Both the position numbers and the translations under genes were made by a program. From the NCBI GenBank assembly GCA_947571775.1, contig CANOZK010000003.1:62001-126000 (forward strand): a stretch of DNA of 64,000 bases. The letters are read 5' to 3'. Each line of letters starts with the position of its first letter. Positions within the stretch are counted from its first letter, which is position 1. Below the pieces are notes generated by a model. The model was not told the DNA's origin, searched no databases, and worked only from the letters and a program-made list of their open reading frames with translations. Below, in pieces: positions 4,567 to 55,246 of the stretch. Source of the DNA: an uncultured Lachnospiraceae bacterium (GTDB lineage Bacteria > Bacillota > Clostridia > Lachnospirales > Lachnospiraceae).

Positions 4567-5013
4567 TTACACCTCCTCTACATAAATGGCCTGTTTGGGA
4601 CAGGAGGCTACGCAGGACGGTTCTCCTCCTGCATTTACACAGAAGTCACATTTGATTACTTTGGTCTTGCTCACTGTGTCTGGTTTCAGTACTCCATAAG
4701 GACAGTTCATCACGCACATAAAGCAAGAGCCGCAGCGTGTTTCATCGTAGAATACATGGCCGCTCTTGGGATCTTTGTGAAGCGCGCCGCTCATACAGGA
4801 TTCCACGCATTTGGGATCGTCGCAGTGGCGGCAGAACAATGGTTTGTATTGTCCGTCGGCGTCTTTCAAGATGCGGTTCCGGGATTCGTTATGGGGGTCT
4901 GTCAGATCCAGGTCGTAAACTGTCCCTTGGGTTTCCCTGTGCGCCTGCATACAAGCAATGGAACAGCTTTTACACCCGTCACATTTCTGATAATCGATTA
5001 CGATGCGTTTCAT
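4567..5013 (-). CDS. cooF: CooF-like polyferredoxin, electron carrier for CO dehydrogenase
   Basis: This protein of about 148 residues carries four four-cysteine sets, including CDGCKSCSIAC, CRHCDDPKCVESC and CGSCFMCVMNCP, followed by a final set near the C-terminus. They suit four [4Fe-4S] clusters. It is the usual partner that takes electrons from CooS. The ribosome site is AGGAAGGGG; possible starts are GTG 5022, ATG 5019 and ATG 5013, and I chose 5013 because KRIVIDYQKCDGC is where homologues normally begin. It lies 9 to 18 bases downstream of cooS, depending on the start used. Confidence 0.88.
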   Translation of the reverse strand: MKRIVIDYQKCDGCKSCSIACMQAHRETQGTVYDLDLTDPHNESRNRILKDADGQYKPLFCRHCDDPKCVESCMSGALHKDPKSGHVFYDETRCGSCFMCVMNCPYGVLKPDTVSKTKVIKCDFCVNAGGEPSCVASCPKQAIYVEEV

Positions 5014-49439: not shown

Positions 49440-49459
49440 TTAGTCTTCCAGGTCTTTTT
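49421..49459. terminator. Perfect bidirectional terminator embedded in two coding ends
   Basis: Arms AAAAGACCTGGAAGA (49421-49435) and TCTTCCAGGTCTTTT (49444-49458) pair over 15 bp around an 8-base loop TTGATTAG that contains both stop codons. T-runs follow on both strands. The arms encode the last residues of both convergent proteins. Confidence 0.92.
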
Positions 49460-50738
49460 CCTTGTTCAGATCTTTATAAAAATCTTCTGGAATGTAAATC
49501 CGAACTTTTTCTACTCGATTTTTGTCGATATGCTCCACCAGAAAACGGATGCCGGTTTCCAGGGCGAGGGTTTGCCCCTCGGAGGGCAGGCTGTCCATCT
49601 GTTCAATGAGGTATCCGCCGATGGAATCATAATCCTCGGAATCCAGATTCAGGTGTAGTTTTTCATTCAGATAATCGATACGGGCTGAACCCAAAGCCAG
49701 GTATTCCGCCTGCGGCACAATTTCCGTCAGATCTTCCTCTTCCTCTGCATCGTATTCGTCCCGGATTTCCCCGACGATCTCTTCCAGAAGGTCTTCTAAG
49801 GATACCAGACCCACGGTGGCTCCGTATTCATCCAGCACAACGGCCAGATTATAGGAAGCTTCCCGCATCTCCAGAAGAAGAGAAACGGTGCTCTTATGCT
49901 CATACGTAAAATAAGCTTTCCGCAGGTGTTCCCGCAGGACAAAAGGCTGATCAGGCTCCAACAGCAGCAGATCTTTCATATTTATGATACCAATGACATT
50001 GTCTGTTGTGTCTTCGTAGACTGGAAAGCGGGTATGCATATCCACCTGGAAAATATCAATCAGTTCCTGGTAGGTAGTGTTTACGTCTACAAAGGTCATG
50101 TCAACACGGGGCACCATCACATCTCTGGCAGAAGAATCTCCAAAATCGAAAACATTGTAAATCATCTGCTTCTCTTCGTTTTCGATCACTCCGTCCTGTT
50201 CGCTGACATTTACAATGGTGCGCAGCTCATGCTCAGTCATGGTGTTGGTTCTGGCATGGGGATCGATTCGCAAAAGCAGCATCAAACCGGTAGCCAGGCC
50301 CTGTACCACAAACACCACAGGGGTCAGCACAATCATCAGCGCGTAAATGATCCGCGCATAAGCCAGAGAAAATTTTTCCGCATGAAGGGTGGCCAGCGTT
50401 TTGGGGATGATTTCTCCCCAGATCAACACAATCAGGGTCAGGATTCCGGTGCCGGCGCCCACATAAACGTTGCCGAATTTCCGAATAACCAGGGTAGTCA
50501 TCAAAGAAGAAGCACAGATATTTACGATGTTGTTTCCGATCAAAACAGTACTGAGCATTTTGCCGGAATTGTCGATGATTTTGAGAAGAATCTGAGCCCT
50601 TTTGTTTCCCTGTTCCATAAGGGATTGAATCCTGATCCGATTGACCGTTGTCATAGCAGTTTCCGCTGATGAAAAAAACGCGGAAAGAAAGACAAGTATC
50701 AAAAGTACGACGATCTGTATACCGTCACTCGAGTCCAA
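49440..50738 (-). CDS. CNNM/CBS/CorC-HlyC family membrane protein
   Basis: This 432-residue protein has an N-terminal CNNM (DUF21) membrane domain of about four spans (FLSAFFSSAETAMTTVNRIR, LIWGEIIPKTLATLHAEK). A pair of CBS domains (VMVPRVDMTFVDVNTTYQ, GIINMKDLLLL) leads to a C-terminal CorC_HlyC domain (LDEYGATVGLVSLEDLLEEIVGE). The family is linked to Mg2+/Co2+ efflux or tolerance. The start is TTG 50738 behind AAGGAGTG. It ends in KDLED, and its stop abuts that of the DUF218 gene. Confidence 0.92.
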   Translation of the reverse strand: MDSSDGIQIVVLLILVFLSAFFSSAETAMTTVNRIRIQSLMEQGNKRAQILLKIIDNSGKMLSTVLIGNNIVNICASSLMTTLVIRKFGNVYVGAGTGILTLIVLIWGEIIPKTLATLHAEKFSLAYARIIYALMIVLTPVVFVVQGLATGLMLLLRIDPHARTNTMTEHELRTIVNVSEQDGVIENEEKQMIYNVFDFGDSSARDVMVPRVDMTFVDVNTTYQELIDIFQVDMHTRFPVYEDTTDNVIGIINMKDLLLLEPDQPFVLREHLRKAYFTYEHKSTVSLLLEMREASYNLAVVLDEYGATVGLVSLEDLLEEIVGEIRDEYDAEEEEDLTEIVPQAEYLALGSARIDYLNEKLHLNLDSEDYDSIGGYLIEQMDSLPSEGQTLALETGIRFLVEHIDKNRVEKVRIYIPEDFYKDLNKEKDLED

Positions 50739-51179
50739 TGATGTTCACTCCTTTTTTTCATTCCTTATAAAATTTAGTTGTCTTTGGAAATGATACATGA
50801 TTTTGGTAAGAAATGCAAGTGTTAGCAGAAAGATTCTGACTGTTTGGATGTGTTTTTTCAAGAATAGCTGTTCCGAAATATAGCCTCTATTTTTGTGCGC
50901 GGTATTTTGGAAGAATGCACAGCGGAATTGTTGTCCAGACTCTGGAAAAATTTAGAAAAACACTTGCATTCGGTAAAAAAATGCAGTATACTGAGGCCAT
51001 CTCAGTATCCTGTGGTTATATTTAATTTATAGTTGTGTACGACCGGAATTTCTTTGCGCCTGAATATGCACAAATTTAGGATGTGTATACGGAAGGGGTA
51101 TGCAGGGTGCACATAGATAAATTCGGGTGCGGAGAAGGTTCTGGGAGTATGCCAATCGTGAAAAGGAGGAAAAAGTTTT
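50739..51179 (+). promoter_or_regulatory. Intergenic region with promoter of the surface-protein gene
   Basis: There is no gene in this 441-base interval. TTGCAT at 50964, 17 bases, TATACT at 50987 is a good sigma-A promoter reading right, giving a leader of about 180 bases before ATG 51180. The left part must hold the promoter of the CorC-type gene, with no clear match seen. AAAAGGAGG precedes ATG 51180. Confidence 0.65.
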
Positions 51180-53772
51180 ATGAAACGGAAACGGTTAATG
51201 AAAATGCTGACAATGGCGTTGGTGGCAACAATGGTTTGCACGCCTGTACCAGCAATGGCAGCAGAAATTGCTGAGGGGGGGGGTACAACCCAACTCTAAC
51301 ATAATTGTTGAGGAAGCACCCGTTATTGTGCAGGATTTGGAAGAATACAGGGCGTTGGAAGGTGAGAGCGCTGCGGAAGATGTGACCGCAGAAAGCTTGG
51401 AGGACCTTAATACGCAACTGGGCAATGCAAATAATGCGGGCCGTACAGTAAAGCTTGGAGCTGATATTGACCTTACGAAGAATGAGGGAGATCATTATCC
51501 GGTTACTTCGAGAGGAACGGTTACTTTGGATTTGAACGGACACACAATCACGGCACTTCATGATAGCTGGAAGCATAATCTGGCTGTTACAGGAGACTTG
51601 ACTGTGATCGACAGTGTGGGCGGCGGAAAAATTATTGCGCCTGCGAATGCAACAGGAGGTTCTTCAATCATTCAGTGCTATGGAAATATGACGGTAAAGA
51701 GCGGTTCCATAGAGTCGCCGGGCTTTTCGGTAACGGTGTATGACAATAATAAGATAACAGTCGCGGGCGGTACTGTGAAATCAGACTCAGTGGCAATTTC
51801 CCTGCATGGAAACAGCGAAAGTGCACAGGCGGCGATAACGGGCGGCGAGGTTGTATCAACAAAGGATTATGCGATTTATTCCGCATCACCAGAATCCACA
51901 GTTGATATCGCAGGCGGTAAAGTAACCGGCGGCGCCGGATGTGTGATGATGAATGCCGGAACCTTAACCATTACAGACGGTACATTGGAAAGCGACGGCA
52001 CAGGAGATCCCGGTTCGAGAGAGACGGATGCGGTAAATGGCTCCGCAGGCGCTGCGAATGCTCTGATGAATCTGAAACACTTATATAAACCTGTGACGGC
52101 AAATATCAGCGGCGGAACATTTATTCAGAAAGATAATAGCAAACCGGTTTACTTGGTAGGAAATGCCGGCAAGGCAAATGATACAGAGTCTGTCTTGTCC
52201 GTGACAGGCGGAACATACACAAACGGAACGACTTCAATAGAATTGGCCAGAATTTTTCAAAAAGTAACAAAACGGGAGAACGGCTATGATGTTCCAGAAG
52301 CAGATGATTCGCATTTAGCTGAGGGATATATTTACCAAGACGGTCAAGTTACAAGAGACCTGAAGGAATTGACTATCGTGACAACATCGGCGAACGTAAC
52401 CGCTGGCGAAACCGTTGACCTGGCTAAGAATTTTACATTAAAAGATGCGGACGGGAATGCAGTGCCGGACGTCGGGGTAGCTTACTCCTCCTCAGATGAA
52501 AAAATCCTGACCGTCAGTTCAAACGGCACAGCGACTGGCGTTGCTGCCGGAACGGCAAAAGTTGCGGTTTCCCCGTTGGATCCACAAAAGGACGGGTATA
52601 CTTGGAAGGCGGCAGAGATTACTGTATATGTGGCGTCCAGGCCGATACCGACAATCGTTACGCCGCAAGCCAGCCCGACTCCCGAACCCAGCACATCGCC
52701 AGAACCGACTCCCGATGTCCCGACAGGCACCCCGGCACCGGGAACAACCACAGAGACAACGGTAAAAGACGACGGGACGAAAGTGACCACAACGACAACC
52801 ATCAACGAAGACGGAAGCCAGAAACAGGAAGTGATCGAAGAAAAGCCCGACGGCTCAAAAGTGGAATCCACCACGGTCACCAATGCCGACGGCTCCAGCC
52901 AGGCGACGAAAACCGAGACAGCAGCCGACGGCACCGTGACTAAGACTACCATGACCGAGACAGCGGCCGACGGCTCTGCAACCAAGACCGAGAATACAAC
53001 CGAAACCAACAGCAAGGGCACACAAGTCGCAAAAACCGTTGTGACCGAGAGCGATACCACAGGAAACGTAACGGGCGTAACCGAAAAATCCGTTTTTGCA
53101 CCGGTAAATAACACAGAAGCTACCGTGACCGTGACGAAAGACGGCAGCAACCATGTGACGGCGGCAAAAGCTTCGATTGTCAATACCACATCCGGCAGCA
53201 AGGTTATCCTGTCCGCAGACATCGCGGAACAGGTAGCCGAGGCGGCGGGACAGGAAAACGTAGTGATCACTTTGACAGCGAAGAAGGCCAACGGAGACGT
53301 TGCCTATCAGATGACCGTCAATGCATCCGATGTAAAATCCGGTGAAGATCTATATGTATACGCTTACAACAAGAAGACCAAGGAATACATGCTGGTCAAT
53401 GCCAAGACCTACGCGATAAAAAATACCAATCTGAGCATATCCTTGAAAAACAACAAGGTCAATGAGATTTACAGACTGGTAAACAACAAGCGGTCAACGA
53501 CTTTAACCAACAAGATACTGAAAACCGTGAAACTGGCAAAGACTTCCGTTTCCGTAAAAAAAGGCAAGAAGACAAACCTCGCATTCGGCTCTAAGCTGAA
53601 TACGGCAAATGTAAAGAAGATTACATACAGCACTTCCAAAAAAGCTGTCGCAGCCGTAAATAAAAACGGCAAAATTACAGCCAAGAAGAAAGGCGCTGCA
53701 ACCGTTAAGGCAAAAGTGACCCTGCTCAACGGCAAGACAAAGACAGTAAAAATGAAAGTAAGAGTAAAATAA
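51180..53772 (+). CDS. Large secreted surface protein, out of frame at a G9 tract (probably phase-variable)
   Basis: ATG 51180, with AAGGAGG upstream, encodes a signal peptide (MKRKRLMKMLTMALVATMVC, cleavage near AMA-AE) but meets TAA after 39 codons. The long frame continues in +1 from the run of nine G at 51275-51283; with eight G the whole is one protein of about 863 residues. Domains by position: a beta-helix-like, Gly/Thr-rich repeat region 51.40-52.34 kb, a Big2-type Ig domain 52.37-52.65 kb, a Pro/Thr stalk, degenerate TETAADG(T/S) repeats 52.75-53.09 kb, a C-terminal fold, and a Lys-rich Big2-like end. There is no LPXTG; wall attachment may use the basic C-terminus. Likely an adhesin or wall protein. 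Confidence 0.75.
51275..51283 (+). repeat. Homopolymer G9 tract, predicted slippage site
   Basis: Nine consecutive G at codon positions just after the signal peptide. Length 8 (or 11) restores the frame; length 9, as here, gives a 39-residue dead-end peptide. Confidence 0.85.
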
Positions 53773-53778
53773 TCCAAA

Positions 53779-53827
53779 AATAAAAAAGGCTTAGGAGCAT
53801 AGGCTTCTGGGCCTTCTTTATTTTTTT
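53779..53827 (+). terminator. Terminator after the surface protein
   Basis: AATAAAAAAGGC and GCCTTCTTTATT pair with one mismatch around a 20-base loop, followed by T7. Confidence 0.7.
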
Positions 53828-53965: not shown

Positions 53966-55246
53966 GTGTCAAAAGTGGAAAAGAAAATTAGGCGCAATAA
54001 AGGCGCAATGAAAATCGGATGTATTCTTATGGCGGTATCTCTGGCAGTCTTAAACCCAAGCATGAGCATGGTTTATGCGAATTCAGACACAAATACAGAT
54101 ACGGAAAAGAAAATCGTCTCTGAAAACAAAACAAAATCCGACAGTGAGAAAAAGAAAAATAAAAAAGCAAAATCCGACTCCAAGCAGACGGAGAAATCAA
54201 CAGAAAAACCGACAGAAACAGACGCTGCACAGCCGGCGGAATCCCAGATTTCCCAAAAGACGGAAACGCCTCAGAAGACAACGGTTCCCGAAAAGGCCGA
54301 GGGCGATGACGAGCCGGACACAGAAGGATTAGACACCGATGCTGTGCAGGACAAGGGAGATACTTCAGACGTTGACGAGGAATCCCAGGGGCCGGAGGAG
54401 GAAGACGAAGAACACACTTCCGATGCAGAAAGCAAGGAAGACGTTTCCGGTAGCGGTTCCGAGGAAGAAAGTTCAGACAATACCGATCCATCTGAGGAAA
54501 CCAAGCCGGCAGAAAGTGAAAAAAGTGAAACTGGAACAAATACAGATACAGATACAGATGCGGCAGAAACCGACACAGAGGAAGACGTTTCAGATTCGGA
54601 ACAGTCTTCTGGTATACCAGATAGCGATGGGGAATACAGCGGAGAGTATATAGAAGAAGAAACCGAGCCAGTTCCCGTAGTGGGGCTAGTGGAAGGCGCG
54701 TCTACGGTGATCGTAGGCGGGCTGGCGCCAGTGGTGCAGACAGGCAGCCAGGGAGAGGATTCGGTGAACAAAGAAGTTGGGGGCGATGCTTCCGAAAATC
54801 AGGAAGACCAGGAAGACTCCGAGGAACAGAGCCGGATTGCGGGAAGTAAGCCCCTGGTAGGGGGAGTGCTTGCCGGGGAGGGACAGACAGGAACGTCGAC
54901 GCCAAAACCCTCCCGGACGCCGACTCCTACCAGCAGTGCAAGCCGTACGACAGCAACACCGGCGGCTACAACGGCAGCCACATCAACGCCAGCAGCCGTT
55001 CAGCCCGATAACCGGGTAGCCCTGAACGATACCTCCAACGCTTCCAACAGTCAGACCATTGTCACTCCGGCAGCGGCTTCCGACAGAGGAAATACAGTTG
55101 CAGGAGCGATTCGGGCAGGCGTGGCAACCGAAGATTCTACAAAGATTCTGCCGCTGATTCTAATCGGCGCGGCGGCGCTGATAGCCATTGCCGCTGTCGT
55201 AATACTCAAAATAAAAAGAGGCAGAAAAGACCAGGATCAGGAATAA
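53966..55246 (+). CDS. Acidic Ser/Thr/Glu-rich protein anchored by a C-terminal span
   Basis: This 426-residue protein has a signal peptide (MKIGCILMAVSLAVL, end near VYAN), then about 170 residues of low-complexity Lys/Glu/Asp/Ser/Thr sequence, a Val/Pro segment (PVPVVGLVEGASTVIVGGLA), a Thr/Ala/Pro stalk, and a C-terminal span (LPLILIGAAALIAIAAVVILK) with a KRGRK stop-transfer tail. It should stand out from the membrane like a mucin-type stalk. Start GTG 53966 follows AAGGTGG. No enzymatic domain is seen; function unknown. It follows the large surface protein and may act with it. Confidence 0.75.
   Translation: MSKVEKKIRRNKGAMKIGCILMAVSLAVLNPSMSMVYANSDTNTDTEKKIVSENKTKSDSEKKKNKKAKSDSKQTEKSTEKPTETDAAQPAESQISQKTETPQKTTVPEKAEGDDEPDTEGLDTDAVQDKGDTSDVDEESQGPEEEDEEHTSDAESKEDVSGSGSEEESSDNTDPSEETKPAESEKSETGTNTDTDTDAAETDTEEDVSDSEQSSGIPDSDGEYSGEYIEEETEPVPVVGLVEGASTVIVGGLAPVVQTGSQGEDSVNKEVGGDASENQEDQEDSEEQSRIAGSKPLVGGVLAGEGQTGTSTPKPSRTPTPTSSASRTTATPAATTAATSTPAAVQPDNRVALNDTSNASNSQTIVTPAAASDRGNTVAGAIRAGVATEDSTKILPLILIGAAALIAIAAVVILKIKRGRKDQDQE

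Follow-up and report, generated by a model that had tools for sequence, protein, structure and literature searches.

A probable poly-G slippage switch behind the signal peptide of a secreted-protein gene in an uncultured Lachnospiraceae bacterium

Introduction

Most of what is known of phase variation by slippage at repeats comes from Gram-negative pathogens of mucosal surfaces. In gut anaerobes, surface genes are switched stochastically by invertons, that is, by recombinase-dependent DNA inversion, and the Lachnospiraceae are major commensals of the gut. Among the slippage systems, the pilC1 and pilC2 genes of Neisseria have poly-G within or beside the region coding for the signal peptide, and a one-base change toggles between the full-length protein and an early stop (PMC13190605); in pilC1 ten G correspond to the on state and nine G to the off state (PMC5231331). 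Campylobacter jejuni, devoid of mismatch repair (PMC4235727), has 12 to 29 G/C tracts per genome, located mostly in genes for surface-glycan enzymes (PMC4965091). Gardnerella, a Gram-positive mucosal bacterium, has many G/C tracts of at least 8 at surface-protein genes, one of which varies in length (PMC11287997). In Listeria, a frameshift in the 5' poly(A) of inlA truncates the surface protein, and a survey of 5' homopolymers found poly-G over-represented in few genomes only (PMC2831843).

The gene described here lies in a 64,000-nucleotide stretch of DNA (the window) from an uncultured Lachnospiraceae bacterium and is very probably a slipped-strand contingency locus captured in the OFF state, one of a genome-wide set of poly-G tracts. 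It resembles pilC in that poly-G at the signal-peptide region would toggle between a full-length and a truncated protein, but differs in its Gram-positive host and in a tract placed shortly past the cleavage site; no PilC domain was found, and the protein is no homologue of PilC. Taken together, the set of tracts would work like the phasome of C. jejuni, with tracts on surface-glycan enzymes, from which it differs by the presence of MutS and by the addition of large secreted proteins with the tract past the signal peptide. Gardnerella offers a Gram-positive parallel with long G/C tracts at surface-protein genes, though mostly upstream of the genes and in a different phylum. The inlA gene shares the 5' homopolymer frameshift in a surface-protein gene, but its tract is a poly(A) of 6–7, and the invertons of gut bacteria share the stochastic switching of surface genes, but act by inversion and not by repeat slippage. 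No report of repeat-slippage switching in Lachnospiraceae or gut Firmicutes was found in the openly licensed literature, which is weak evidence of absence; the mechanism is of a known kind, while the poly-G set in the Lachnospiraceae appears undescribed.

Organization of the proposed switch gene

The gene, from its Shine-Dalgarno sequence to the terminator, occupies positions 51163–53826 of the window. Together with a possible promoter upstream, it comprises the following features:

50964..50992, + strand: possible promoter TTGCAT-17-TATACT, read off the sequence, with a weak -35 and a good -10 box; below the promoter-scan threshold and only suggestive
51163..51169, + strand: Shine-Dalgarno sequence AAGGAGG, read off the sequence, 10 nt 5' of the ATG at 51180
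51180..51299, + strand: OFF reading frame of 39 codons, coding for the signal peptide and a short tail, with a hydrophobic core and an A-x-A cleavage motif at residues 25–27
51275..51283, + strand: tract of exactly nine G, the proposed slippage switch, about five codons past the cleavage site
51284..53772, + strand: silent mature frame, with a possibly beta-helix-like N-terminal half, a Pro-rich linker, a paralogue-like C-terminal half and a C-terminal Big_2 domain
53786..53826, + strand: intrinsic terminator-like hairpin with a T-rich tail, found by a sequence scan

The first-pass annotation had placed a start with a signal peptide at 51180, and this is borne out by the AAGGAGG at 51163–51169 and by direct reading of the signal peptide, MKRKRLMKMLTMALVATMVCTPVPAMA^AEIAE, the first 27 residues being signal-peptide-like and ending in AMA. 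Its count of nine G at 51275–51283, behind the cleavage site, is exact; with nine G the frame opened at 51180 ends at a TAA (51297–51299) after 39 codons, and with one G fewer it runs unbroken to 53772, giving a product of 863 residues, both as the annotation had stated. Two extra G (11 G) likewise restore the frame. The long frame (51268–53772) is stop-free; it counts 834 codons when begun at a TTG, which lacks a ribosome-binding site. The earliest in-frame ATG 3' of the tract, at 51688, has neither a ribosome-binding site nor a signal peptide, and the silent frame contains no well-placed internal start able to rescue secretion, so that the OFF state should yield no secreted product.

A palindrome at 50988–51008, ATACTGAG-GCCAT-CTCAGTAT, overlaps the possible -10 box and is a candidate operator or 5' leader hairpin. 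The next gene (53966–55246) codes for a secreted protein, acidic and of low complexity, that has a membrane helix at its C-terminus; its place is conserved in relatives, while its sequence is variable.

The product is read as a secreted, adhesin-like protein. Pfam places Big_2 (PF02368) at the C-terminus (E 5e-9) and gives weak Big-like matches besides; these are the only matches, and the PilC beta-propeller domain was not found. Folded as a single sequence, the N-terminal half gives a weak model (pLDDT 56) with a region of repeated strands; the nearest PDB structures are parallel beta-helices, the first being the SRRP adhesin of L. reuteri (probability 0.99, E 0.07, not significant), and the fold thus serves as a mere hint of a beta-helix. 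The gene had been annotated as coding for a surface protein: the signal peptide and the domain types support this, and from them we infer surface attachment and a presumably adhesive role. Neither an LPXTG motif nor an SLH domain, the marks of a sortase or S-layer anchor, was found by Pfam or at the C-terminus (KMKVRVK).

G tracts in the genome

Exact runs were counted on both strands of the host genome (G000; 2.70 Mb, 45 contigs, 99% complete), which has 8 G7, 3 G8 and 9 G9 runs and none of ten or more. The G9 tracts are a distinct class: against the nine seen, 1.1 would be expected even if the most generous decay is assumed (P about 3e-6) and 0.05 from the window's own 5-to-6 decay. The tract is long enough to slip and stands out from the genome background, in which G9 runs outnumber both G7 and G8 runs. 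In 80 named, syntenic Lachnospiraceae loci (1.13 Mb) there are 92 G6 and 3 G7 runs, and none of eight or more. The median among 61 genomes is one G9 run per genome, and G9 runs outnumber G7 runs in 6 of the 61, the host genome included; by these counts the same excess is seen in G033, G016, G020 and G046. Gene counts refer to one draft genome per species. A null model of dinucleotide shuffles of the window, under which a mean of 4.1 runs of eight or more G is expected and the 2 seen are unsurprising, was judged unsuitable, as it over-predicts G runs, long ones being avoided in the actual DNA of this group.

Most of the G9 runs of the host genome belong to envelope-type genes, either within them or immediately 5' of them. 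The other tracts of this genome, together with one G8, are:

C8:92906: G9 in a TylF-type methyltransferase gene, in frame
C8:106402: G9 in a hexapeptide acetyltransferase gene, in frame
C8:107443: G9 in a LicD gene, in frame
C7:15844: G9 in a radical-SAM/SPASM gene, in frame
C8:88812: G9 near the 3' end of a glyoxalase-family gene, out of frame
C6:88661-88669 and 88804-88812 (L054:4662-4670, 4805-4813): two G9 in a 284-bp gap before a small secreted-protein gene
C17:380-388 (L057): G9, followed about 130 nt downstream by a signal-peptide gene that is truncated where the contig ends
C3:225442 (L056:7443-7450): G8 splitting an NKWYS-type putative capsular-polysaccharide gene, out of frame

The two tracts of the C6 pair are 143 bp apart, and the gene downstream codes for a secreted protein of 187 aa. 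The position of one tract, perhaps in a promoter spacer (TTGCAT-18-TAATAC), and of the other in the leader suggests transcriptional phase variation. The contig break at the C17 tract fits a switch region. A glycan gene cluster at G000:C8:84000-112000 (L052, L053) holds four G9 tracts, including those in the LicD and TylF methyltransferase genes. In the sister species G002, the orthologue of the NKWYS-type gene (C6:36775; L150, L174) has nine G and is in frame; the two genes differ beyond the G count.

It could be argued that the true length of the tract is eight, the gene being always on and the ninth G an artefact of homopolymer calling, and homopolymers of eight or more G are indeed error-prone in assemblies (PMC4235727). 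Such a sequencing or assembly error is very unlikely here: the four other tracts of this genome that are in frame at nine G speak against a general one-base miscall, and a miscall would leave the presence of long G tracts at these genes unexplained, together with the recurrence of the same design in relatives (see below). Moreover, even a G8 at this place would remain a candidate switch.

The same design in relatives

Four further secreted-protein genes, all unrelated, have a tract directly behind the signal peptide; three are out of frame and one is in frame. The carriers are two further species of the genus (G002 and G003) and a member of another genus of the family (G033):

G003:C11:69984: MKQKWFRTMMAMTLSTTMMCVAIPMIAYANQ, then G9, then a secreted protein of 1763 codons, out of frame
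G002:C2:14330: MKRYKRVLALVLASAMALTPVTAYAAQ and about 20 residues, then G10, in frame, 1781 residues
G033:C4:1017: G9 behind the signal peptide, out of frame
G033:C11:6751: G9 behind the signal peptide, upstream of a GH43 domain, out of frame

Outside the repeat regions no homology among these signal-peptide/tract proteins is detectable, which points to the same engineering solution and not to one inherited gene. The post-tract motif GGGGGGGTASAACCNAAC, looked for in 397 genomes of the family (G003 not among them), turned up only in the window itself, and the post-tract peptides of the gene and of its G003 counterpart are similar only at E 0.14, a level at which homology is not claimed. A switch module shared by these genes is possible, and the tracts of the two genera could have been acquired independently.

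Tract-bearing genes of other genomes code for glycosyltransferases, Acyl_transf_3 and MBOAT acyltransferases, polysaccharide pyruvyl transferase, TupA-like ATP-grasp proteins and the like, and the tract lengths in G002 range from 9 to 12. G033 (L215-L234) has 20 G9 tracts, in acyltransferase, pyruvyl transferase, TupA-like, AraC regulator, GH43 and similar genes. Two paralogous loci of G003 (L160:1502-1510 and L163:1502-1510) have G9 followed by C before a second frame (QCSMMG...), out of frame with the upstream gene.

Selection on the silent frame and its distribution

The host genome encodes a paralogue (C8:27005-28114) to which the C-terminal half of the silent frame is 83% identical over 361 codons, with dS 0.59, dN 0.087 and dN/dS 0.15. 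The codons of the silent frame point to purifying selection, and the gene does not represent an old pseudogene, against which the first-pass annotation had already argued from the lack of stops: the 824 codons contain no stop or other second lesion, and both the ribosome-binding site and the downstream terminator are intact. An orthologue at the same place, sought in G001–G003 and in a sample of named relatives, is absent, the CorC-like neighbour (49440–50738) precedes other genes in the genus mates and named relatives checked, and a search of the genome contigs with the protein as a single query found no relative. The gene is accessory. Its absence from the same place in relatives and its being out of frame would suit a simple pseudogene, killed by a one-off frameshift; we regard this as highly improbable in view of the purifying selection seen against the paralogue, of the intact frame and flanking signals, and of the same arrangement at other genes.

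Proposed mechanism

Phase variation, as the first-pass annotation had suggested, is the reading that best accommodates the distinct G9 class, the location of most of its tracts at surface-glycan and secreted-protein genes, the recurrence of the design among relatives both in and out of frame, and the maintained frame. DNA polymerase would slip on the G tract, gaining or losing one G, presumably reversibly and at a high frequency. With 8 or 11 G, translation would run from the signal peptide into a secreted, probably cell-surface, protein of about 860 residues of the beta-helix/Ig-like adhesin type; with 9 or 10 G, it would halt just past the signal peptide and leave no export-competent product. 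The sequenced genome would represent the OFF state. The placement of the tract past the cleavage site would make the extra Gly-Gly harmless when the gene is ON and restrict the product to a tiny peptide when it is OFF.

A contingency locus is expected to toggle by a single unit, and here such a change converts a 39-codon product into one of 863 residues; the downstream frame is kept functional (no stop in 824 codons, the dN/dS value being that of the C-terminal 361 codons). Other genes of this design occur in both phases, and so does the NKWYS orthologue pair, whose members differ beyond the G count; for the gene itself no orthologue was found. It counts against slippage that every tract above eight in the host genome has one length, nine. 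MutS is encoded in this genome, and slippage may therefore be slower than in Campylobacter. The least probable reading is recoding, in which transcriptional slippage or ribosomal frameshifting on G9, known for slippery homopolymers in other systems, would give a constant low output of the full-length protein, with the tract setting the level and not acting as a switch: four of the five genes with a tract at the signal peptide are out of frame at nine G, but there is an in-frame example (G002, G10), and the proportion of out-of-frame to in-frame genes is about that of random phase. Recoding may add leakiness to slippage without replacing it.

Significance

The gene would be one member of a poly-G switch set acting in the genus on glycan-modifying and secreted-protein genes. 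We consider it rather probable, with less assurance than for the locus itself, that a genome-wide poly-G phasome operates in several lineages of the Lachnospiraceae: post-signal-peptide tracts would switch large adhesin-like or glycan-acting secreted proteins, and other tracts the decoration of surface glycans. Assemblies usually drop such length changes or label the genes as 'frameshifted'. If the proposal is true, the poly-G phasome would be the repeat-slippage counterpart of invertons in dominant gut anaerobes, and single-base changes of tract length could conceal how strains differ in adhesion, in IgA coating and in their sensitivity to phage.
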